Below are positions 30,228-46,367 of a stretch of 64,000 bases of DNA, in pieces. The position numbers and the translations under genes were made by a program. This DNA comes from Kribbella qitaiheensis (GTDB taxonomy: Bacteria > Actinomycetota > Actinomycetes > Propionibacteriales > Kribbellaceae). The notes under the pieces are model-generated. The model saw only the letters and a list, made by a program, of their open reading frames with translations, searched no databases and was not told where the DNA came from. Location of the stretch: contig NZ_CP043661.1 of assembly GCF_014217565.1 (NCBI RefSeq), positions 3,968,001 through 4,032,000 on the forward strand, read 5' to 3'. Within the stretch, counting starts at the first letter, position 1. Each line of letters begins with the position of its first letter.

Positions 30228-31460
30228 CTAGACGGGTCTTCCGGCGATAAAGGTCTGCGTGACCAGGGGGACGCCGGGGCGGTACGCGAGGTGGAGGTAG
30301 GTGGGGGCGTCCAGGACTGCGAGGTCGGCGCGTGTGCCGGGGGCGATGCAGCCGATGTCGGTGCGGCGGAGCGAGGCGGCGCCGCCTGCAGTTGCGGACC
30401 AAAGGGCTTCAGCGGGGGTCATGTGCATCTCGCGTACGGCGAGGGCGATGCACAACGGCATCGAGGACGAGTAGCAAGAACCCGGGTTGCAGTCGCTCGC
30501 CAGGGCGACGGTGACGCCGGCGTCGATCAGGCGGCGGGCGTCCGGGTACGGCGAACGGGTGGAGAACTCGACTGTGGGCAGCAGCCCTGCCACCACACCG
30601 GAGGAAGCGAGGGCGTCGACGTCAAGGTCAGACAGGTGCGTGCAGTGGTCGGCCGCGGCCGCACCTAGCTCGCAGGCAAGCTGTACGCCGGGGCCGAAGC
30701 CGAGCTGGTTCGCGTGCACTCGCAAACCCAGTCCCTTGGCGGCACCGCTGGTCAGGATCGCCCGCGCCTGGTCCGCATCGAAGGCACCCCGCTCGACGAA
30801 AACGTCCACCCACTTCGCATGGCCCGCGGCCGCATCCAGCATCGGCCCGGTCACCAGCGATACGTACGCCGCCGGGTCATCCGCGAACTCGGGCGGCACC
30901 ACGTGCGCTCCGAGGTAAGTGGTCTCGTCGGTGAACTCCGAGGCGATCGCCAACGCACGCGACTCGTCCACAGAGGTCAGGCCGTAGCCGGACTTGATCT
31001 CGACCGTGGTGGTCCCCTGGCGACGCATCTCGGTCACCAGCCGGGCCACGTTCGCCCGCAGTTGCTCGTCGGACGCCGCGCGGGTCGCGGCGACCGTGGT
31101 CCGGATCCCGCCCGCGCTGTACGGCGTACCGGTCATCCGCGCGGCGAACTCCTCGGCCCGATCACCCGCGAAGACCAGATGCGAATGCGAATCCACGAAG
31201 CCCGGGATCACAGCACGCCCGCCGAGATCCAGCGAGCTGTCCGCCGCCGGTGCGTCCCGGCGCGACCCGACCCAGGCGAACCGCGACCCTTCGATCACCA
31301 CCGCCGCGTCCCGGATCTCGCCCACGGCAGCATCATCCGCGCCGCCCGAGCCAGCACCACCAGAGCCGGCGCGACCGCGCGCCGAGCCGCCTGGCAGCGC
31401 GCCACGCTCCGGGTCGTTCGTTACCAGAGACCCGATCCCCGTCAGCAAGAGCGAGGTCAT
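30228..31460 (-). CDS. hutI: Imidazolonepropionase HutI
   Basis: The 410-residue amidohydrolase opens the imidazolone ring to give N-formimidoyl-L-glutamate. Metal ligands are visible in [22 protein letters not shown] (about residues 87-108), in [12 protein letters not shown] and in [20 protein letters not shown] and EFADDP are family hallmarks. An inserted Gly/Ala/Arg-rich stretch ([18 protein letters not shown], about residues 23-40) is unusual and probably a surface loop. It is the last gene of the leftward hut operon and overlaps hutF by 4 nt. Confidence 0.95.
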
Positions 31461-32770
31461 CCCGTCACCGCCCCGATCGAGGCAGCCAGGTCGGCCGCCA
31501 CATCCAGCTTCACATGATTGCCGTCAGCAACCACTTGCCGTCCGGAGACGACCACATCGGTCACATCAGGCGCAGAAGCAGCAAACACCAGCGTCTCCAG
31601 CGACGCCCCGGTTCCAGCCGTGCGCACACTGGCAGCCCGTACTGCGACCAGATCCGCCCGCGCGCCGCTCTCGATCACCCCCGCATCCTCGAAACCGAGC
31701 GACCGATGCCCATCGACAGTCGCGGCAGCCACCAACTCCGCCGCCGACCAGTGTCCGCGTTCCTGCGAGGCCAGCCGTTCATCCAGCTCCACGGCGCGCA
31801 TCTCCTCGAACAGGTCGATCACCGCGTGACTGTCCGATCCCAGCGTCAGCCGCGACCCCGCGTCCCGCAGCGCGACCGACGGACCGATCCCGTCGGCCAG
31901 GTCGCGTTCGGTCGTCGGGCAGAAGCACGAGTACGTCGCCGAGCTGCCGAGCAGCCCCACATCCACAGGCGTCAGGTGAGTCGCATGGACCGCGCTCGTC
32001 CGCGCATCCAGGAACCCGGTCTCATCGAGCACCTGCGCCGGCGTACGCCCATAGGCCGCCAGACAAGCCACATTCTCCGCCACCTGCTCGGACATATGGA
32101 TGTGCAGCGGCGCGTTCGGCAGCACCGAGGCCACGGCGCCAAGCTGGTCAACCGGAACCCCACGCACCGAGTGCGCGGCCGCGCCGATCACCACATCGTC
32201 CGAAGAATCAGTCAGCGACAGCACCCGCGAGGCCCAACCGGACGCATCACCATCACTGAATCGTTGCTGCACCTCGTTCAGCGGCTGGTCGATCCCGCCT
32301 GCCACATAACAGGTGTCGAGCAACGCGATCCGCAAGCCGGCATCCCGCGCGGCCGCGATCAGAGCCTGACCCATCGCGTTCGGGTCGTCATAGCGCTTAC
32401 CGCCGGGCGCGTGGTGGAGGTAGTGAAACTCCCCCACCGCAGTGATCCCGCTCAGCACCATCTCGCCGTACACGGCCCGCGCGAGCTGGTAGTAACTGTC
32501 GGGCGTCAACACCGAAGCCACGGCGTACATCTGCTCACGCCAAGTCCAGAACGTCCCGCGCTCGGTCTGCGTGCGGCCGCGCAGCGCACGGTGGAACGCG
32601 TGACTGTGGCAGTTCGCCAACCCAGGCAGCACGATCCCGCTCAGCCGGACCGCATCGCCAGGCGACGCGTCTGCCTCGACTGAGGCGAACCGGCCGTCCA
32701 CCACCGTGACCAAGACGCCCGAAGCCAGGCCCGTCGGCAACAGCGCCTGCTCACACCAGAAAGAGGTCAT
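31457..32770 (-). CDS. hutF: Formimidoylglutamate deiminase HutF
   Basis: The 437-residue amidohydrolase-superfamily enzyme converts N-formimidoyl-L-glutamate to N-formyl-L-glutamate and ammonia. It carries the metal site [20 protein letters not shown] (residues of about 50-70), [12 protein letters not shown] and the conserved [22 protein letters not shown] and [19 protein letters not shown] give further ligands. HutF marks the five-step route that needs a formylglutamate deformylase. It is coupled by 4-nt overlaps to the M20 hydrolase and hutI genes. Confidence 0.94.
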
Positions 32771-33960
32771 CGAGCGAGATCCTTCAGTACTGCGGCGAGC
32801 GCTTCGACCCCCACCAGGCAGTCGTCCATCTCCGCGTGCTCGGCCGGCGAATGCGAGATGCCGGTGGGATTCCGTACGAACAGCATCGCGGTCGGGATCC
32901 CGGCATCCGAGAACACGCCCGCGTCATGACCGGCGCCGGTCGGCAGCACCGGCGCATCATCCAGTACTGCGGCCAGCCGGTCACGCAGTCCCGGCTGGAA
33001 TTCCACGATCGGCGAGACCGATTCTGGCGTGACCTCGACGCTGGTGCCGTCCCGCTCGGCTCGTTCCACCGCTTGCCGGCTGATTGCTGAGAGCAACGAC
33101 TGGAGCACCTCGTCAGTCGCCGCGCGAGCATCCAGCCAGGCTGTCACCTGCGACGGCACCGCGTTCGTCCCGTTCGGCTCGACCGACAACCGGCCGAAGG
33201 TGGCGCGCGCGCCGGCGAGGCGGGCCTGCTTGTTCGCGGCGAGTGCGGTCATCGCGTAGGTCAGCATCGGGTCATGCCGGTCTTCCATCAATGTGGTACC
33301 GGCATGGTTCGCCTCGCCCGTGAAGGTGAAGCGAAAACGCCCGTGCGGCCAGATCGAGCTCGCCACTCCCACCGGAGCGGTCAACGCGCGCCCTTGTTCG
33401 ACATGCAGCTCGACGAACGTCCCCATCCGGTCGAGCAACGGCGACGGGCCGACTCCGGCCGGGTCGATCCCCAACTCGGACAGCGCCGTCGACAACGGCA
33501 CGCCGGCACGGTCCCGCAGAGCAAGAGCCTTCTCGGCAGGCAGTACGCCGGTCGCGATCCGAGACCCGAGACAAGGCATCCCGAAGCGCGATCCTTCCTC
33601 TTCTACAAACGCACCCACCCCGATCGGCACCGAAGGCTCAAAACCCTCCGCCCGCAGGCGATCCACAGCAGCCAACGCGGAGACGACACCAAGCGGCCCG
33701 TCGAAGGCGCCGCCGTCGATGACGGAATCAAGATGACTTCCAGTAACCACACCTGTCTGATCGGAAGGGCCCCACCAGGCGACGAGGTTGCCTAGGCCGT
33801 CGGATTCGAGGGCCAGGCCGCGGGCGGCGCACTGGTCGCGAAACCAGTCGGTCGCCACCCGCTCGGTGGGGGTCCAGCCGCCTCGGTGGTACCCCCCGGA
33901 CGAGGGGTCCTTGCCGATCGCGGCCAGCGCCGCCCACATGGTTTCGAAAGAGTCGGTCAA
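32767..33960 (-). CDS. M20-family amidohydrolase, probable N-formylglutamate deformylase substitute
   Basis: The 397-residue enzyme belongs to the allantoate amidohydrolase/N-carbamoyl-amino-acid hydrolase branch of M20. Bimetal ligands are visible: GSHLDSVIDGGAFDGPLG (about 75-92), the EEEGSRF pair near 125, ELHVEQG near 190 and SHSPAEHAEMDD near the C-terminus. Its position between the importer and hutF, with 4-nt overlaps on both sides, argues that it acts in histidine breakdown. No hutG is present, so removing the formyl group from N-formyl-L-glutamate is the likely step. Allantoate or carbamoyl-amino-acid hydrolysis is the alternative. Confidence 0.85.
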   Translation of the reverse strand: MTDSFETMWAALAAIGKDPSSGGYHRGGWTPTERVATDWFRDQCAARGLALESDGLGNLVAWWGPSDQTGVVTGSHLDSVIDGGAFDGPLGVVSALAAVDRLRAEGFEPSVPIGVGAFVEEEGSRFGMPCLGSRIATGVLPAEKALALRDRAGVPLSTALSELGIDPAGVGPSPLLDRMGTFVELHVEQGRALTAPVGVASSIWPHGRFRFTFTGEANHAGTTLMEDRHDPMLTYAMTALAANKQARLAGARATFGRLSVEPNGTNAVPSQVTAWLDARAATDEVLQSLLSAISRQAVERAERDGTSVEVTPESVSPIVEFQPGLRDRLAAVLDDAPVLPTGAGHDAGVFSDAGIPTAMLFVRNPTGISHSPAEHAEMDDCLVGVEALAAVLKDLAR

Positions 33961-34889
33961 GACAGCGGGTTCTTCGACAGCCAGTCCTTGGCCACCGCGT
34001 CGGCGCTTTCCTTCTTGACCTCGACCCGGGTGACCAGGTCGGTCAGGCCGTCGGTGGTCAGCTTGGCCTGCACCGCGTTCAGCGTGGACGCGACGTCGGG
34101 GCTCTTGTGGTCGGTCCGGATCAGCGGAAGGATGTTGTTCGGCAGGTGGATGTGCTCGGGGTCCTCCAGGACGACCAGCTTGTTGTCCTTGATCGCCGAC
34201 TGGGTGGTGAAGAACTGGGTCACCTGGATGGTGTTGTCCTTCAGCGCCTTCAGGCTCAGCGGACCACCCGCGTCCAGCGTCTTGAACTCCTTGAACTCGA
34301 CGCCGTACTTGTCCTTCATCCCGGCCAGCCCGGCGGTCCGGGTCTTGAACTCGGGGCCACCACCCGCGACCAGCGTCTTGCCGACCGCCTTCAGGTCGCC
34401 GATCGACTTCAGCGAGTACTTCGCGGCGGTCTCCGGGGTGACCACGATCGCGTCCTCGTCGGCGGCCGCCGACTTGTCCAGCACCTCCAGGCCCTTCGGT
34501 AGTGCGCCCGGGATCGCCTTGTAGACGGCCTCGGCCTCGTTCTCCGTCGCGTCCTTCTTGAAGTAGACCAAGGTGGCGCCGGTGTACTCCGGGAGCAGGT
34601 CGACCGACTTGTCCTGGATGGCCGCCATGTACAGCTCGCGGGCACCGATGTTGAGCTTGCGGTTCACCTTGATGCCCTTGGCCTCCAGAGCCTGGGCGTA
34701 GATCTCCGCGAGCAGCTGGCTCTCGGCGAAGTTCGCCGAGCCGACCGTCAGCGAGTCGACCTTGTCGGGCGCCGATCCGCCGCCCGCGCCGCTGCTGCCA
34801 CCCAGCGGGTCGTCGTTGCCGCCACCGCAGGCCGCCAGGGCAAGCACGGTCGTCGCGGCGATGGCGCCGATGAAGGTTCTTCTGAACAC
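33957..34889 (-). CDS. ProU/OpuC-type substrate-binding lipoprotein
   Basis: The 310-residue lipoprotein has a lipobox (TTVLALAACGGGND) and an OpuAC-type domain (LTVGSANFAESQLLAEIYAQALEAKG, LLPEYTGATLVYF, LAGMKDKYGVEFKEF). The family binds quaternary amines such as glycine betaine, or in some members histidine or proline. Context in a hut operon favours histidine or a related compound. It lies 21 bp after the second permease gene and overlaps the M20 gene by 4 nt. Confidence 0.9.
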   Translation of the reverse strand: MFRRTFIGAIAATTVLALAACGGGNDDPLGGSSGAGGGSAPDKVDSLTVGSANFAESQLLAEIYAQALEAKGIKVNRKLNIGARELYMAAIQDKSVDLLPEYTGATLVYFKKDATENEAEAVYKAIPGALPKGLEVLDKSAAADEDAIVVTPETAAKYSLKSIGDLKAVGKTLVAGGGPEFKTRTAGLAGMKDKYGVEFKEFKTLDAGGPLSLKALKDNTIQVTQFFTTQSAIKDNKLVVLEDPEHIHLPNNILPLIRTDHKSPDVASTLNAVQAKLTTDGLTDLVTRVEVKKESADAVAKDWLSKNPLS

Positions 34890-34910
34890 GGGATCCTCCA
34901 GGGTCCGTTA

Positions 34911-35624
34911 CTACACTCCGGCTGGTGCCGGAGCAGTTGAAGTCTTGGTGTCAGTGTTGCGACGCAGCCGGCCGGTGAGGCCGGCGGACACGGCGTACCG
35001 CCCGATTGCGGCGAAACAGAGATCGAGCAGGATCGCCAGCACCGCGACCAGCACGGCACCGGTCAGCATCTGCGGGAAGTCCCGCAGGCTGAGTCCGTCG
35101 ATCACGTACCGCCCCAGGCCACCGAGCGCGACGTACGCCGCGACGGTGGCGGTGGAGACGATCTGCAGGGTGGCGCTGCGCAGGCCCGAGATGATCAGCG
35201 GCAGCGCGATCGGGATCTCCACCTTGGTGAGGATCTCCCGCCCGGTCATGCCCATCCCGCGGGCCGCGTCGATCGTGGCCCGGTCCACGCCCGAGACCCC
35301 GGCGTACGTCGAGGCCAGGATCGGCGGGATGCCGAGCACCACCAGGGCGATGATCACCGGCACCTTGCCGATCCCGATCAGCAGCACGACCAGGGTCAGC
35401 AGGCCCAGCGTCGGCAGCGCGCGCCACGCGTTCGCCGTGTTGATCGCGATGAACGCGCCACGCCGGGTGTGGCCGATCAGCAGGCCGACCGGGAACGCGA
35501 TCACCGCGGCGATCAGCAGCGAGAGGAAGGTGTAGCCGAGGTGCTGCGCGATCCGGTTGCTGATGCCTTCGGCACCCGACCAGTTCGCCGGGTCGGTGAT
35601 GTAGTCGAGGAATCCCTGGATCAT
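34911..35624 (-). CDS. ProU/OpuC-type ABC permease (second)
   Basis: The product is 237 residues from the ATG at 35624 (MIQGFLDYITDPANW), inside a 4-nt overlap with the upstream permease and with a GGAGG ahead; a longer frame upstream is rejected. It has about five membrane segments and an EAA-like loop (IDAARGMGMTGREILTKVEIPIALPLIISGL, about residues 120-150). It pairs with the other permease. The C-terminal tail is Thr/Lys/Ala-rich. Confidence 0.92.
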   Translation of the reverse strand: MIQGFLDYITDPANWSGAEGISNRIAQHLGYTFLSLLIAAVIAFPVGLLIGHTRRGAFIAINTANAWRALPTLGLLTLVVLLIGIGKVPVIIALVVLGIPPILASTYAGVSGVDRATIDAARGMGMTGREILTKVEIPIALPLIISGLRSATLQIVSTATVAAYVALGGLGRYVIDGLSLRDFPQMLTGAVLVAVLAILLDLCFAAIGRYAVSAGLTGRLRRNTDTKTSTAPAPAGV

Positions 35625-36280
35625 CGGACGACCTCCTTGACCGGCACGACCGCGCGGGCCCATGGCGTCAGCAGGCGTTGCAGGCCGACCAGCGAGATGT
35701 CGGCGATCAGCGCCAGCGCGAGCGACAGCACCACGCCAACCACGATCGGGGTGAGGAAGTCCTGCTGGAAGCCGAGGGTGAACAGCTGACCGAGACCACC
35801 GACACCGATGATCGCGCCGACGCTCACCATCGAGATGTTCGCGACCGTGACGACCCGCAGCCCGGTGAAGATCACCGGGACCGCGATCGGCAGATCGATG
35901 GTCACCACCCTCCGCAGCGTGCCATAGCCCACCGACACCGCGGCCTGCAGAACGTCTTCGGGTACTGAGCGGAGTCCGTCGATCACGTTCCGGATCAGCA
36001 GCGAGACGGCGTAAATGGTCAGCGCGATGATGATGTTCGCCTGGGACAGCACCTTGGTGCCGATGATGGCCGGCAGCACGATGAACAACGCGATCGAGGG
36101 CAGCGAGTAGAGCACGCCGCCCAGCGCGACCAACGGGTTCGCGAGCCAGCTGAACCTGGTCGCCACGTAGCCCAGCGGCACCGAGATGACCAGTCCCAGC
36201 ACCATCGGGATCAGCGACAGATAGATGTGCTGCCCGAGCTGCGTCCAGATCAGGCCGGTGTTGTCACCGATCCAGGTCAT
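35621..36280 (-). CDS. ProU/OpuC-type ABC permease (first)
   Basis: This 219-residue permease has about five membrane segments and the EAA-like loop LQAAVSVGYGTLRRVVTIDLPIAVPVIFTGL (about residues 130-160). The N-terminal YLSLIPMVLGLVISVPLGYVAT and the conserved SLPSIALFIVLPAIIG are typical of OpuCB/CD-type permeases. The gene sits 28 bp after the ATPase gene. Confidence 0.92.
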   Translation of the reverse strand: MTWIGDNTGLIWTQLGQHIYLSLIPMVLGLVISVPLGYVATRFSWLANPLVALGGVLYSLPSIALFIVLPAIIGTKVLSQANIIIALTIYAVSLLIRNVIDGLRSVPEDVLQAAVSVGYGTLRRVVTIDLPIAVPVIFTGLRVVTVANISMVSVGAIIGVGGLGQLFTLGFQQDFLTPIVVGVVLSLALALIADISLVGLQRLLTPWARAVVPVKEVVR

Positions 36281-36308
36281 GAGGCCCCCACATGCGGCAG
36301 GTGCACAG

Positions 36309-37307
36309 TCATGGGCGCAGCACCCCGGCGAGGGCGGTGTAGTCGATCACGCCGACCGCCTTGCCTGCCTCGTCGACGCAGATCCCCTGCCCGACCGGCG
36401 ACGTCAGTACTGCGTCCATCGCGGCCCGCAGCGAGTCGCCCGTCTGGAAGGCGGCGCCGATCGGCAGCAGTTCGCCGTTGCTCTGCCAGCCCAGGGGTTC
36501 GCCGTTGTCGCCGAGCGAGAGTTCTGCCGGTACCGGCCCGAGCGGCAGCTGATCCGCCTTCAGGAAGGTGAGTTTGCGGTAGCCACGATCCTGGCCGATG
36601 AAGCTCTCGACGAAGTCGTCGGTCGGGTTCGCCAGCAGTTCCTTCGGCGGATCGAACTGGGCCAGCTTGCCGCCGACCCGCAGTACGGCGACGTTGTCAC
36701 CGAGCTTGATCGCCTCGTCGATGTCGTGCGTGACGAACACGATGGTCTTGCCGATGTCGCGTTGCAGCCGGAGCAGTTCCTCCTGCAGCTGGTGCCTGAC
36801 GATCGGGTCGACCGCACTGAACGGCTCGTCCATCAACATGATCAAGGGATCGGCGGCCAGCGCGCGAGCCACTCCGACCCGTTGCTGCTGGCCACCGGAC
36901 AGCTGGGCCGGATACCGCTCGGCCAGCTTGAGGTCGAGGCCGACCCGCTCCAGCAGCTCCATCGCCACCGACCGGGACTTCTTCTTGTCCCAGCCCAGCA
37001 GCTTCGGCACCGTGGCGACGTTGTCGACGACCGTCTTGTGCGGGAACAGCCCGGCATGCTGGATCACATAGCCGATACCGCGCCGCAGGGCGACCGGGTC
37101 CTTGTCGTTGATGTCCTCGCCGTCGATCGAGATCCGGCCGCTGCTGCGCTCGATGGTCCGGTTGATCATCCGCAGCGAGGTCGTCTTGCCGCAGCCCGAG
37201 GGCCCGACGAAGACGGTGATCTCGTTGCTCGGGATCCGCAGGCTCAGCTGGTCGACGGCGACGGTGCCGTCCGGATACTGCTTGGTGACGTCTTCGAACT
37301 CGATCAT
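36309..37307 (-). CDS. ProU/OpuC-type ABC ATPase with C-terminal CBS-like tail
   Basis: The 332-residue ATPase has Walker A GPSGCGKTTSLRMI (about residue 36), Q-loop, signature LSGGQQQRVGVARALA, Walker B LIMLMDEPFSAVD and H-loop VFVTHDIDEA. Residues after about 255 form a CBS-type region (GDSLRAAMDAVLTSPVGQGICVDEAGKAVGVIDY), in OpuA-like proteins a sensor of ionic strength or nucleotides. It starts 155 bp after hutU, a gap that may hold its own promoter. Confidence 0.93.
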   Translation of the reverse strand: MIEFEDVTKQYPDGTVAVDQLSLRIPSNEITVFVGPSGCGKTTSLRMINRTIERSSGRISIDGEDINDKDPVALRRGIGYVIQHAGLFPHKTVVDNVATVPKLLGWDKKKSRSVAMELLERVGLDLKLAERYPAQLSGGQQQRVGVARALAADPLIMLMDEPFSAVDPIVRHQLQEELLRLQRDIGKTIVFVTHDIDEAIKLGDNVAVLRVGGKLAQFDPPKELLANPTDDFVESFIGQDRGYRKLTFLKADQLPLGPVPAELSLGDNGEPLGWQSNGELLPIGAAFQTGDSLRAAMDAVLTSPVGQGICVDEAGKAVGVIDYTALAGVLRP

Positions 37308-37462: not shown

Positions 37463-39118
37463 TCAGCTCTCCCGCATCGGGATCCTGACTCCCTGCTCGG
37501 CCGCAACCTCTTCAGCTCGTTGGTACCCGGCATCCACGTGCCGAATCACACCCATCCCCGGGTCGTTGGTGAGTACCCGTTCCAGCTTCCGCCGGGCCAG
37601 CTCGGTGCCGTCGGCAACCGACACCTGACCGGCGTGGATCGACCGGCCCATCCCGACCCCACCACCGTGGTGGATGGAGACCCAGGAGGCACCGCTGGAG
37701 ACATTCACCATCGCGTTCAGCAGCGGCCAGTCCGCGATCGCGTCCGAGCCGTCCAGCATTCCCTCGGTCTCCCGGTACGGCGAGGCGACGGATCCCGTGT
37801 CCAGGTGGTCCCGGCCGATCACGATCGGCGCTTCCAGCTCGCCGGAGGCAACCATGTCGTTGAACCGTACCCCGGCCTTGTCCCGTTCGCCTTGGCCCAG
37901 CCAGCAGATCCGGGCCGGCAGCCCCTGGAAGGCGACCCGCTCCTGCGCCATCTTGATCCACCGGGTCAGGTGCTCGTTGTCCGGGAACAGTTCGAGGATC
38001 GCCTGGTCGGTCTTGGCGATGTCGGCCGGGTTGCCCGACAGCGCGGCCCACCGGAACGGGCCCCTCCCCTCGCAGAACAACGGCCGGATGTACGCCGGTA
38101 CGAAGCCGGGGAAGTCGAATGCGCGGGAGTAGCCGGCCTTGCGGGCCTCGTCGCGGATCGAGTTGCCGTAGTCGAACACCTCGGCCCCCGCGTCCTGGAA
38201 GCCCACCATCGCCTCGACGTGCCGCGCCATCGACTCCTGCGCGCGCTCGGTGAAGCCGGCCGGGTCCTTCTCCCGTGCGGTGGTCCAGTCCTCGAACTCC
38301 ACACCCACCGGCAGGTACATCAGCGGGTCGTGGGCCGAGGTCTGGTCGGTCACGATGTCGATCGGCGCACCGCGCCGCAGCAGGTCCGGCACGATCGAGG
38401 CCGCGTTGCCGAGGACACCGATCGACAACGGCTTGCGGGCCGCCCGCGCTTCCTCGGCCAGCCGCAGCGCGTCGTCCACGGACTTCGCCTGTACGTCGAG
38501 GTAGCGGTGCTCGATCCGCCGCTTGATCCGCGAGTCGTCCACGTCGATGCAGATCGCCACGCCGTCGTTCATCGTCACCGCGAGCGGCTGCGCGCCACCC
38601 ATGCCGCCGAGTCCTGCGGTCAGCGTGACCGTGCCGGCCAGCGTGCCGTTGAACTTCTTCGCCGCGACAGCCGCGAACGTCTCGTACGTGCCCTGCAGGA
38701 TGCCCTGGGTGCCGATGTAGATCCACGACCCGGCCGTCATCTGGCCGTACATCGTGAGCCCCATCGCCTCCAGCTTGCGGAACTCCTCCCAGTTGGCCCA
38801 GTCGCCGACCAGGTTGGAGTTCGCGATCAGCACCCGCGGCGCCCACTCGTGCGTCTGCATCACGCCGACCGGCCGACCGGACTGCACCAGCATCGTCTCG
38901 TCGTCCTTCAGCGTGGTCAGCGTCCGGACCATCGCGTCGAAGGAGTTCCAGTCGCGCGCCGCCTTGCCGGAGCCGCCGTACACGACCAGCTCGTCAGGGT
39001 GCTCCGCGACCTCGGGGTCGAGGTTGTTCTGCAGCATCCGCAGCGCGGCTTCCTGCTGCCAGCCGCGGGCGGTGAGCGTAGTACCGCGAGCGGCGCGAAC
39101 GGGACGTGGTCCGGACAT
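37463..39118 (-). CDS. hutU: Urocanate hydratase HutU
   Basis: The 551-residue enzyme converts urocanate to imidazolonepropionate using NAD+ as an electrophile. The ATG at 39118 ([15 protein letters not shown]) is preferred; a longer frame overlaps hutH. Visible features are [12 protein letters not shown] near the start, the NAD-binding [16 protein letters not shown] (about residue 155) and the conserved cysteine region [16 protein letters not shown] (about 410). Length matches the family (about 555). It lies 29 bp after hutH. Confidence 0.97.
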
Positions 39119-39147: not shown

Positions 39148-40692
39148 TCAAGACAGCGGACCGGTGACGGCCTCGACGGCGGACAAGTAGGTGCCGTCAG
39201 CAACGAGCCGGACGGAGTGCGCGATCTCGGGGGCGAGGTGCCGGTCGGTGCCAGGTCCCTCGACGTGCTCCCGCAGTACAGCCCGTACTGCGGTGGTGGC
39301 GGGCGACGGTTCCAGCGGTGCCCGCATGTCCAGGGCGCGTGCCGCGGTCAGGATCTCGACCGCCAGCACCTGCTGGAGTCCGTCGATGCTCTTGCGGAGC
39401 TTGCGTGCGGCGGACCATCCCATCGAGACGTGGTCCTCCTGCATCGCGCTGCTCGGAATGGAGTCGACGCTGGCCGGAACCGCGAGCCGCTTCAGCTCGG
39501 ACACGATCGCGGCCTGCGTGTACTGCGCGATCATGTGACCGCTGTCGACGCCCGGATCGTCCGCCAGGAAGGCATTGAGGCCGTGGCTGCGCGAGACGTC
39601 GAGGAACCGATCCGTACGCCGTTCGCTGATGCTGGCCACGTCGGCGACGGCGATCGCGAGGAAGTCGAGCACGTACCCGACAGGCGCGCCGTGGAAGTTG
39701 CCGTTGGACTCGACACGACCGTCCGGAAGCACGACCGGGTTGTCGATCGCGGCGGCCAGCTCCCGGCCGGCCACGGTCGCCGCGTGCGAGCAGGTGTCCC
39801 GCGCAGCACCGTGCACCTGCGGCGAACACCTCAGAGAATAAGCATCCTGGACCCGGTTGCAGTCCGGTCCGCGATGGCTGGCGACGATAGGACTGTCAGC
39901 CAGTACTGCGCGCAGGTTGGCGGCGGCCGCGCCCTGCCCCGGGTGCGGGCGGAGTGCTTGCAGGTCGGCAGCGAATACACGGTCGGTGCCGAGCTGACCC
40001 TCCACACTCATGGCGGCGGCGATGTCGGCGGTCTTGAGTAGGCGATCCAGGTCGGCCAGCGCGAGCACCAGCATGCCGAGCATGCCGTCGGTGCCGTTGA
40101 TCAGCGCCAGGCCTTCCTTCTCGGCCAGCACGACCGGCTTCAACCCGTTGGCTTCGAGGGCCTCACCGGCGTCGCGGAGAGTGCCGTCGGCATCGCGGAC
40201 CTTGCCCTCACCCATCACGGCGAGAGCCACGTGCGACAGCGGAGCCAGGTCGCCCGAACAGCCGAGGCTGCCGTACTCGTGCACGACGGGAGTCAGCTTC
40301 GCGTTCAGCAACCCGGCGTACGCCTGGGCGGTCTCGGGTCTGACCCCGGTCCGGCCGGTCGCGAGCGTCGACAGCCGGAGCAACGCGAGCGCCCGCACCA
40401 CCTCGGTCTCGACCTCGGGCCCGGAGCCGGCCGCGTGCGACCGGACCAGACTGCGCTGGAGCTGGGCCCGGAGCTCGGGCGCGATGTGTCGCGTCGCCAA
40501 TGCCCCGAACCCGGTGGACACGCCGTAGTGCGGGGTGTCCGCGTGGGCGAGCGCCTCGATCGCAGCCCGCGACTTCGCGATCTGCTCGAGAGCCTGGTCA
40601 TCGATCCGCACCGGCGCCCCGTACCGCGCCACCGCGACGACGTCGTCCGCACTCAGCGGCCCGACCCCAACAACTACCTCTACTGTCTGCAC
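39148..40692 (-). CDS. hutH: Histidine ammonia-lyase HutH
   Basis: The 514-residue enzyme removes ammonia from histidine to give urocanate. The GTG at 40692 ([17 protein letters not shown]) is chosen, with GGGAGGGG 12 nt or so upstream; the open frame beyond runs into tandem repeats. The catalytic Tyr is in [11 protein letters not shown], the MIO-forming triad in [15 protein letters not shown] is Cys-Ser-Gly rather than the commoner Ala-Ser-Gly, and [27 protein letters not shown] and MQEDHVSMG are conserved. It is the first gene of the cluster, just downstream of a repeat-filled leader. Confidence 0.96.
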
Positions 40693-42422: not shown

Positions 42423-43181
42423 GTGAGCGGCAACGTTCCCGCCTCGACCCGCACCCTGCGGGTGCTGACGTTCCTGGCCACCCAGCCCGGTCCGGTACCG
42501 ATGGAGCGCATCGCCTCCGCGGTCGGCCTGCCGCGCTCGTCCACCTATCACTTGCTCAAGGCAATGATCGGTGAGGGCTTCGTGGTGCACCTGCCGGAGG
42601 AGAAGCGGTACGGCCTCGGCGTCGCCGCGTTCGAGATCGGATCGGCCTATCTCCGCCACGATCCGCTCGAGCGACTGGCCCGGCCGTTGCTCGTCCAGCT
42701 CGTCGCGGACGTCGGCCAGACCGCGCACCTGGGTGTCCTGCACGGCCGCGAACTCGTCTACCTGCTGAAAGAACAGCCGCCCCGCCCGGTCACCCTCGTC
42801 ACGGACGTCGGCGTCCGCCTCCCGGCCACGCTCACAGCCTCCGGCCGCGCCCTCCTCGCCGAATTGCCGGCCGCCCAGGTGCGCGCCTTGTTCCCGGCGC
42901 CGGAGAGCTTCGTACGGCGTACCGACCACGGGCCGCAAACGCTGAGCCAGCTACGCAGACTCCTTGCGGACGAACGCCGGCAGGGCTTCGCCATCGAGGA
43001 ATCGCACATCACCCCAGGATTCGCCTCGGTCGCCAGCGTCGCCGTCGACCACGCCGGTCACCCGGTCGCCGCCATCAGCGTCACCTTCCGCACCGAGTCC
43101 GTCCCACCCGAAGCCCGGCCATCCCTGGCACGGCGTACAAAACAAGCAGCCGACGCCCTGACTCGCCGCCTGCACGGCTGA
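42423..43181 (+). CDS. IclR-family transcriptional regulator
   Basis: The 252-residue protein starts at GTG 42423. The N-terminal winged helix is at about 8-70 (ATQPGPVPMERIASAVGLPRSSTYHLLKAMIGEGFV). The IclR effector domain follows (LLVQLVADVGQTAHLGVLHGRELVYL, LPATLTASGRALLAELP, GFAIEESHITPGFASVASVAVDHAG). It lies about 1.7 kb from hutH and could regulate histidine use, but the local context does not prove that. It ends before a bidirectional terminator. Confidence 0.9.
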   Translation: MSGNVPASTRTLRVLTFLATQPGPVPMERIASAVGLPRSSTYHLLKAMIGEGFVVHLPEEKRYGLGVAAFEIGSAYLRHDPLERLARPLLVQLVADVGQTAHLGVLHGRELVYLLKEQPPRPVTLVTDVGVRLPATLTASGRALLAELPAAQVRALFPAPESFVRRTDHGPQTLSQLRRLLADERRQGFAIEESHITPGFASVASVAVDHAGHPVAAISVTFRTESVPPEARPSLARRTKQAADALTRRLHG

Positions 43182-43760: not shown

Positions 43761-43867
43761 CTGACCTTTCCTTCCAGGCGTGTCCCACGCCATCGAACCC
43801 TTGAGTACCGTGAACAGCGGCCGTCCGGTGGGCTATTCCCGGTAGCCTCCAGCAGTGTACGTTGTAC

Positions 43868-43887
43868 TGGTTATCATTTTCAATAAG
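43868..43887. promoter_or_regulatory. Candidate Zur box in the divergent ribosomal-protein promoter region
   Basis: On the minus strand the sequence reads CTTATTGAAAATGATAACCA, in which TGAAAATGAT is the left half of actinobacterial Zur sites. It is AT-rich against a very GC-rich background and lies between divergent sets of zinc-independent ribosomal protein genes, exactly where Zur control is expected. Confidence 0.75.
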
Positions 43888-43899
43888 ACGGGAGACGCG

Positions 43900-44262
43900 G
43901 TGATCCTGAGCAGCGACGACGAGACGGCCGCAGCGCTGGCCCGGGCAATCAATCCGCAGGCGCTGGTTCGGACGACCCCGGCCGACCTCCTCGGAGTACG
44001 GCTGCATGATCCCGACACGGCCGAGACCTGGGTCGAGCCCGGCGCCATCAGCGCGCCGCTGCAGGACGGCGGCCGGGTCCGGACGCTGGAGTGGCACCCC
44101 GAGCACGGCGACCGCGCGACGTACCTGTCCATCACCGGAATCGACCTGGACATCTGGGAATTGGAGCGCCGCCTGGATGGTTGTGTACTTCGTGCGGATG
44201 AATCGGCCGGCCAGCTGACTGATCCGTTCGCCCCTTATCTGGAAGGAAGTGCAGCAGCATGA
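43900..44262 (+). CDS. Stand-alone CobW C-terminal-like domain protein
   Basis: A GTG at 43900 with GGGAG 5 nt upstream gives a 120-residue protein; an in-frame extension to 43855 would run through the Zur box, so it is rejected. Residues of about 55-105 ([41 protein letters not shown]) resemble the C-terminal domain of CobW/COG0523 zinc chaperones, and [15 protein letters not shown] the end of their GTPase domain. The P-loop and other GTP-binding motifs are absent. It overlaps rpmE2 by 4 nt. A role in zinc handling or as a remnant is inferred from context. Confidence 0.7.
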
Positions 44263-44699: not shown

Positions 44700-44945
44700 G
44701 AGACGCCACGGTTCAGTACTGCGGTGACCGAACAGGCCGTACATGGTCACATCGTTGCCGTTGACAACCAGACCGTTCGCCGGTGGCGGCCGGACGTCGT
44801 ACCGGGGTCTGGTCGAGGTCGCGCCGGGCAGCCATCCGCTCGAGGAACCCGCTGAACAACCGCGCGGTGCGGGTGTCTCGGGTTTCAGACACCAGAGCGG
44901 GTGCGGGTACGGCGTGAGGGGGGTCACAGGTCGCACACTGTGCAG

Positions 44946-46367
44946 GTGGAGCCGATCGAGATTTCCGGGGTGGGGCTGACGCCGTTGGACGCGGTCTCGC
45001 TCGGGCAGCGCCGGACGCCGGTGCAGCTGGCCGAGACCGCCCGCAAGAAGATGGCCGAATCGGCCGTGGCGGTGGCCGAGATCGCCCTGCATCGGCCGGT
45101 CTACGGGCGGACCACCGGCGTCGGCGCCAACCGGGACGTGCTGACCAGCGACCCGGAACACGGCGCCCGGCTGCTCAAATCCCACTCGACCACCGGCACC
45201 ACGTCGTACCCGAAGGACGTGGTCCGGCTCGGGCTGCTGATCCGGGTCAACCAGCTCGCCGCCGGTGGGTCCGGCTTGGCGCCGGAGGTGGCTGACGCGA
45301 TCGTTGGCCTGCTCAACAACGACGCCCTCCCCGATCTGCACCGCGGTGGCGCGATCGGCACCGGCGACCTCGGCCCGCTCGCGGAACTCGGCCTCGCCCT
45401 CGGCGACGTCATCGACGGCACCAGCGCACTGCCGCTGCTGTCCAGCAACGCACTCACGCTGGCCGACACCTGCCTCGCGTACGTCGAAGCGGCCACCCTG
45501 ATCAACGTCGTACCGCTGGTCGGGGCTCTGTCCCATGTCGCCCTGCGCGGCAACGCCGAGGTGTACGACGAACGGGTTCACGAGGCGCGACCGCAGCCCG
45601 GCCAGGTCCGCGTGGCCCGCCGGATGCGTGGCCTGCTGGACGACCTCCCGCTGCCACCGGCGCGAGTCCAGGACCCGTTCGGCCTGCGCGCGTTCGCTCA
45701 GGTGCTGGGGCCGGCCGTCGACCATGTCGATGCCCTCGGCAACGCTTTGATGATCGACATCAACGCCTCCGCCGAGAACCCGTTGGTGGCCGGTGACACT
45801 GTGCTGCACAACGGAAACTGGCACGCGATGCCGATCGCACTGGCCCTGGATTCGCTGCGGCTGAGCCTGCACAGCGTCGCGACGCTGTCCACGTCCCGTG
45901 TCGCGAACCTGGTCGATCCGGACTTCACCGGGCTCAGCCGCTTCCTGGCCAGCGGCGCCGAGGCGAGCTCTGGCGTGATGATGATCGAGTACGTCGCGCA
46001 CGACGCGCTTGCCTCGGTCCGCTCGACCGCGCAACCGGCGACGCTCGGCACGGCGACCTTGTCTCGTGGCGCCGAACACCACGCCAGCTTTGCGCCGCAG
46101 GCCGCAGTACTGACTGCTCAGTTGCTTGACGCACTCCGTGACGTCCTCGCCTGCGAGCTCGTCACGGCTGTCCGCGCGGTCCGGCTGGCCGGCATCGAAC
46201 CTGACCAACTCGCCCCGGCCTCCGTCGGTCCATGGCTCGCGGATGCGCTGGCCGCGCTCCCCGGCGACCTCACGGACCGATCCCTGCGCGACGACCTGGA
46301 GATCGGCCGGGGTCTGCTGACCCAGTGGGGCGATCGCCAGGTCGAGCACCCGGCCGAGTCGGGCTAG
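44946..46367 (+). CDS. Histidine/aromatic ammonia-lyase-like protein with altered MIO motif
   Basis: The protein is about 473 residues from a GTG at 44946 (another in frame at 44940; no strong ribosome site). The fold is that of HAL/PAL lyases: PVYGRTTGVGANR keeps the catalytic Tyr, QDPFGLRAFAQV keeps the Arg but has Phe for Tyr, ENPLV and NGNWHAMP match the substrate region, and GAEHHASF keeps the Glu. The MIO site reads GGAIGTGDLGPL instead of the usual G-x-x-G-A-S-G-D-L: one residue is missing and the Ser is Thr. INGT is also lost (LSSNAL). A normal MIO cofactor cannot be formed in the standard way, so the reaction is unknown. Confidence 0.8.
   Translation: MEPIEISGVGLTPLDAVSLGQRRTPVQLAETARKKMAESAVAVAEIALHRPVYGRTTGVGANRDVLTSDPEHGARLLKSHSTTGTTSYPKDVVRLGLLIRVNQLAAGGSGLAPEVADAIVGLLNNDALPDLHRGGAIGTGDLGPLAELGLALGDVIDGTSALPLLSSNALTLADTCLAYVEAATLINVVPLVGALSHVALRGNAEVYDERVHEARPQPGQVRVARRMRGLLDDLPLPPARVQDPFGLRAFAQVLGPAVDHVDALGNALMIDINASAENPLVAGDTVLHNGNWHAMPIALALDSLRLSLHSVATLSTSRVANLVDPDFTGLSRFLASGAEASSGVMMIEYVAHDALASVRSTAQPATLGTATLSRGAEHHASFAPQAAVLTAQLLDALRDVLACELVTAVRAVRLAGIEPDQLAPASVGPWLADALAALPGDLTDRSLRDDLEIGRGLLTQWGDRQVEHPAESG

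Follow-up and report, generated by a model that had tools for sequence, protein, structure and literature searches.

The genes and sites discussed here are listed in Table 1 by their positions in the window, that is, the whole 64,000-nucleotide stretch of Kribbella qitaiheensis DNA that was analysed. The gene under study is an uninterrupted reading frame with the coordinates first assigned to it, and its GTG start is supported by the conservation among Kribbella species, which begins at this codon, the upstream region being mostly not conserved. The true hutH that the earlier note on this DNA had placed 4 kb away is found at a distance of 4.3 kb.

Table 1. Genes, candidate sites and active-site segments in the window
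Feature	Position	Strand	Remarks
hutI, imidazolonepropionase	30228..31460	-	
hutF, formimidoylglutamate deiminase	31457..32770	-	
Allantoate amidohydrolase-like hydrolase, hut operon	32767..33939	-	
ProU/OpuC-type ABC transporter within hut operon	33957..37307	-	Binding protein 33957-34889, permeases, ATPase 36309-37307
hutU, urocanate hydratase	37463..39037	-	Sole hutU of the K. qitaiheensis genome
Canonical hutH	39148..40692	-	Cys-Ser-Gly cofactor triplet
IclR-type regulator	42423..43181	+	Relatives in other genera lie divergent to hut operons
Dyad GTGTCT-N8-AGACAC upstream of GT gene	44873..44892	+	Candidate regulator site; core GTCTCGG..AGAC conserved among Kribbella species
Gene of MIO-less HAL-fold lyase (GT family)	44946..46367	+	473 aa, GTG start
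Tyr53	45102..45104	+	HAL catalytic Tyr53 equivalent, kept in 121/121
Ser79-His80	45180..45185	+	HAL SH substrate motif (Ser82-His83; role, PMC11432326); His kept in 121/121
Gly138-Thr139-Gly140-Asp141, shortened cofactor segment	45357..45368	+	HAL equivalent Gly-Ala-Ser-Gly-Asp; gap in 121/121 distinct members
Ser166-Ser167-Asn168-Ala169	45441..45452	+	HAL equivalent Asn195-Gly-Thr-Gln, by alignment
Arg248	45687..45689	+	HAL Arg283 equivalent, kept in 121/121
Met345 to Glu348	45978..45989	+	By alignment, HAL Met382 (kept in 119/121) to HAL Gln385 (Glu in 121/121)
Glu377	46074..46076	+	HAL catalytic Glu414 equivalent, kept in 121/121

The neighbours of the gene encode S14, L33 and type-B L31, and the earlier note had spoken of a zinc-starvation cluster. 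These genes are present, but they look Kribbella-specific: neither S14 nor L31 was found beside distant GT loci among those screened, and no Zur-like box was noticed by eye upstream of the gene. A role in zinc starvation was rejected on these grounds. Relatives encode an intact 366-aa protein, which is taken to be a COG0523/CobW-like GTPase (L075, 8949-10049); the region 43855-44262 retains a part of it that lacks residues 1-164 and 242-308 and is otherwise 80-98% identical.

The gene product scores 318 bits against the Pfam family Lyase_aromatic (PF00221; gathering score 27.3), and its AF2 model (pLDDT 93.9) matches the structures of ergothionase and HAL with TM 0.85-0.91, so that the HAL fold is kept, as proposed earlier. 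The hutH profile models give 243 of 539 bits (the HutH equivalog TIGR01225) and 254 of 524 bits, far under the cut-offs; other members of the family score 270-339 bits against TIGR01225. In the alignment the P. putida HAL triplet Ala142-Ser143-Gly144 is replaced by Thr-Gly, one residue short, and the QDAYSLR segment reads QDPFGLR, with Phe245 for Tyr280. MIO is made from Ala-Ser-Gly (PMC11432326), and hence should not form in this protein. The shortened Gly-Thr-Gly in place of the MIO triplet, the changed INGT and QDAYSLR motifs and the retained active-site residues had all been described before and are confirmed here. The one Ala-Ser-Gly elsewhere in the protein, a possibility that the earlier note had itself held against its proposal, is Ala335-Ser336-Gly337 ('FLASGAE'); in the alignment it falls a long way from the cofactor loop, and the relatives have 'FLADG' or 'FLSDG' at this position, so that it does not count against the proposal. 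Judged by alignment, the protein has the HAL fold and the substrate-side residues but not those needed to make MIO.

The gene, described in the earlier note as an ammonia-lyase paralogue, does not stand alone but belongs to a family, called here the GT family, found across many actinobacteria. It is present in all 38 sampled Kribbella genomes (86-96% identity), where it is under purifying selection (dN/dS 0.06-0.16 relative to the K. qitaiheensis copy). Relatives at 35-52% identity are patchily distributed across the order and the phylum, among them in Streptomyces, Amycolatopsis, Lentzea, Pseudonocardia and Actinomycetospora. The genome search had suggested in-frame stops in some relatives; these proved to be overruns beyond the gene end, and all checked coding frames are open. 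Residues were counted in 121 distinct family members and 41 canonical HALs. The alignment of HAL-like proteins with GTGDL that had been proposed earlier shows the gap, at HAL position 142, in every one of the 121 (Thr-Gly, once Ile-Gly); given this, the occurrence throughout the genus and the selection on the gene, the shortened loop is neither chance nor error. Ser195, Ser196 and Ala198 occur in all members, as does Glu385, where canonical HALs have Gln (37) or His (3); position 63, Ala in HAL, is Arg or Lys in 119, and position 280 is mostly Phe, otherwise Tyr. Tyr53, His83, Gln277, Asp278, Arg283, Asn313 and Glu414 are invariant, and Met382 is retained in 119. The aligned residues thus indicate loss on the cofactor side of the active site and retention on the substrate side.

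In the tree, which is unrooted and was computed without the cofactor columns, the GT family forms one clade (support 100/100) apart from the ergothionase group, although a joint clade of the two is not rejected (p-AU 0.32). The MIO-bearing proteins lie on one side of a branch (94/92). With one nested loss in Sciscionella set aside, the MIO state changes once. For the residue comparison the ergothionase group was defined as the GQ, GA and ergothionase rows. Its characteristic residues, Lys63, Leu280, Glu330 and the absence of Met382 (Gly, Leu, Thr or Ser at this position), are not those of the GT family, which has mostly Arg63, Phe or Tyr280, mostly His330, and Met382.

Further MIO-less relatives were found. 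The K. qitaiheensis genome encodes a second MIO-less HAL-fold paralogue (L022, C1:5181038-5182327) with GAGSAGEI and with Arg for His83; proteins of this type form a clade of their own, represented also in L062, L063, L071 and L214, and in L062 and L063 the gene adjoins an ornithine cyclodeaminase/mu-crystallin homologue. In Sciscionella (L108:11445-12983 and L133), a further HAL-family gene lies directly 3' of the GT gene and has lost the entire cofactor triplet; its placement inside the HAL clade makes this an apparently independent loss.

The GT gene is coupled to hutU in its genomic context. The counts given below rest on gene calls by a custom script, are uncorrected for relatedness and include locus-derived genomes without completeness values. 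Among 18 Actinomycetospora genomes, the GT gene is present in 11 and hutU in 10, always beside the GT gene and in the same operon (Fisher p = 2.5e-4, ignoring relatedness). Canonical HutH occurs in 4 of the 18, and six of the ten hutU-bearing genomes are without it. Operons combining the GT gene with hutU, the amidohydrolase, hutF and hutI are found in Actinomycetospora, Pseudonocardia and a complete Nocardioidaceae-like genome (G091); the GT gene is the last gene of these hutU-G-F-I operons and, in two checked cases, overlaps hutI by 4 bases. The adjacent hutU scores as a true hutU and is under the thiourocanate hydratase cut-offs. A single hutU, within about 20 kb of the GT gene, was found in each of 12 tested genomes, a set partly picked for hut linkage; in four genomes (G689-G692) canonical hutH stands alone elsewhere and the only hutU is the one with the GT gene. 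Across the 87 non-Kribbella GT loci hutU lies within about 10 kb in 14, and most distant loci are not beside hut genes. G091, which has no egtD, and A. termitidis encode no HAL-family protein besides GT, and in seven Actinomycetospora genomes GT is the sole full-length one. Canonical HutH is also present in 22 of 24 genomes with a GT gene, and in all sampled Kribbella genomes except those split over contigs.

Two close Actinomycetospora genomes, G705 (L236) and G688 (L119), differ in that one has lost hutU-G-F-I and kept the GT gene; in G705 the GT gene is present without hutU. In the genome with this loss, the GT gene adjoins GlnT, GltS-like, glutamine amidotransferase-like and sarcosine-oxidase-like genes, a set resembling methylamine metabolism. 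Methylamine genes beside the GT gene in A. termitidis were considered as a clue to function and set aside as too weak, since the cluster is repeated only in one near relative.

Transporter and ergothioneine genes also accompany the family. In two Actinoallomurus genomes the GT gene lies between a ProU-type ABC transporter and egtDCBA, the order being hut genes, IclR, transporter, GT gene, LacI-type regulator, egtDCBA (hut genes and IclR are included in the genome with L141). EgtU holds its quaternary amine in an aromatic cage (PMC9732360). Most GT-linked binding proteins have Asp at the cage residues Asn339 and Tyr341 and Gln, Asn or Glu at Tyr443, a composition more suitable for histidine or another primary amine than for a betaine. 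The quaternary-amine cage is kept only in the deepest GT branch (L070). Betaine transport was thus rejected as proof of a betaine substrate, the cage residues being mostly missing. In 13 loci the GT gene adjoins an MFS transporter whose best NCBIfam match, under the cut-off, is an aromatic acid/H+ symporter family. A cysteine-dioxygenase-like gene recurs near the GT and egt genes in L062, L063, L141, L144 and L071, paired in the first four with an Amidohydro_2 gene; its product possibly acts on a sulfur-containing histidine derivative.

Together, the co-occurrence with hutU and the operon linkage indicate that urocanate is probably the product of the GT enzyme. We suggest that the GT protein could be an MIO-free HAL-fold lyase making urocanate, most likely from hercynine (N-alpha-trimethyl-L-histidine), a reading to which we assign a probability of roughly 0.4. 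Its least certain part is the leaving group, tentatively trimethylamine. Hercynine is favoured by the ergothionase precedent, the redundancy with HutH, the adjacency of egtDCBA and the cage in L070; counting against it are the cage-less binding proteins, the genomes where GT is the only HAL-family protein, the absence of hutU in G705, the many distant loci with no hut neighbour and the position outside the ergothionase clade. In the proposed reaction, which starts from the missing cofactor residues, the kept substrate residues and the coupling to hutU, the SH-motif histidine, Met345 and Glu377 would bind the imidazole, and Arg248 and Gln242 the carboxylate. The additional Glu348, which would face the substrate if judged by its place one helical turn after Met345 (helix 345-361 of the model), may act with Glu377 to keep the ring cationic and so make the beta-proton more acidic. 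Tyr53 would take this proton, and trimethylamine, already a good leaving group, would need no electrophilic cofactor in order to depart; it would move into the room freed by the shortening of the loop, yielding urocanate as the substrate of HutU.

The strongest rival, a serious one although we consider it less likely, is an MIO-free histidine ammonia-lyase that would release ammonia from L-histidine through ring protonation by Glu377 and Glu348 and would replace HutH. In hut operons the GT gene stands where hutH would be expected, and it encodes the sole HAL-family protein in G091 and six hutU-bearing Actinomycetospora genomes, the full HAL substrate set (SH motif, Met382, Arg283, Glu414) is kept, and the linked binding proteins are acidic where betaine binders have the aromatic cage. 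However, the retention of HutH in most of the GT-bearing genomes counted and in Kribbella would make such an enzyme redundant and argues for a substrate other than histidine, and HAL mutants devoid of MIO have hardly any activity towards histidine. We know of no natural MIO-free histidine lyase; if one did replace HutH in complete hut operons, which is rather unlikely, this elimination would not need the electrophilic cofactor. Fewer chances still are given to a different conversion of an imidazole-propanoate or -acrylate skeleton linking into the hut pathway, such as one of cis-urocanate or some other histidine derivative: the imidazole and carboxylate residues, the hut linkage and the MFS transporter agree with it, but it has no direct support, and every characterised relative performs or starts with an elimination.

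Ergothioneine itself is an improbable substrate. A divergent ergothionase releasing trimethylamine to give thiourocanate would agree with the top fold match, the same loop gap, the permitted joint clade, the egt genes of Actinoallomurus and the fact that EgtUC is the nearest solved relative of one linked binding protein. Nevertheless, the near-universal Met382 points to a ring that carries no thione, the adjacent hutU does not score as a thiourocanate hydratase, and the binding protein is without the EgtU ligand residues Lys242, Gly244, Tyr341 and Tyr443. Least probable of all is a HAL derivative that has no catalytic role and serves in binding or regulation, an option of the earlier note: the cofactor is lost, and so are two residues by which HAL supports it, Asn195 and, for most members, Tyr280, but Tyr53, Glu414, Arg283 and Gln277 are fully conserved, new invariant residues have appeared at 195-198 and 385, and the GT gene can be the only HAL-family gene of a hut operon.

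Aromatic amino acid lyases are generally considered to require MIO. A widespread MIO-less sister group residing in hutH-less hut operons offers a direct test of the purpose of this cofactor, and the single change of the MIO state on the unrooted tree, with the nested loss set aside, means that the family bears on its origin. Should the hercynine lyase be true, hercynine breakdown would enter the hut pathway by a route not reported so far and would be a new source of trimethylamine; should the histidine lyase be true, nature removes ammonia from histidine without MIO. Neither a hercynine lyase nor MIO-less HAL paralogues were found in the open-access literature searched. Annotation would be corrected too: the GT genes are named hutH in databases, so that some organisms are predicted to use histidine although they may be unable to.

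Among known systems, HutH (P. putida 1gkm/1b8f and the Kribbella hutH) shares with the GT family the fold, the SH motif, Tyr53, Gln277, Arg283, Met382, Glu414 and the link to the hut pathway. The GT family differs from it in having no Ala/Cys-Ser-Gly, in the replacements of Asn195 and Gly196 by Ser and of Gln385 by Glu, and in a Tyr280 mostly changed to Phe, and the K. qitaiheensis protein is below half of the hutH cut-offs. The other MIO-less HAL-fold groups (GQGD/GQAD, GAAD and G(S/A)AGEI) likewise have one residue of the cofactor triplet missing and lie outside the MIO-bearing side of the tree, but their clades are separate from the GT family, and the GSAGEI type of K. qitaiheensis differs further by the Arg for His83 and the absence of the SSNA segment. 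Ergothionase, which releases trimethylamine from ergothioneine without MIO (review, PMC13405746), heads the structural matches to the predicted model (E 2.6e-26, TM 0.91). The Treponema denticola enzyme (PDB 6s7j/6s7q) has the HAL fold with a cofactor loop one residue short (GEGD), S-C-N-A at the HAL NGTQ position (S-S-N-A in the GT family), a basic residue at 63, and Tyr53, His83, Arg283 and Glu414. It differs by Gly and Lys where the GT family keeps Met382 and Tyr386, by Leu rather than Phe or Tyr at 280 and by Glu at 330, where most GT members have His; at 24% identity and in a separate clade, the GT family is not claimed to be ergothionase. A lyase-like enzyme with another chemistry, as the earlier note had put it, remains the best reading, but such chemistry has a precedent in ergothionase, a HAL-fold enzyme of solved structure that shares the gap and, according to the literature, has no MIO, and by this analogy the GT family would resemble it in working without the cofactor.
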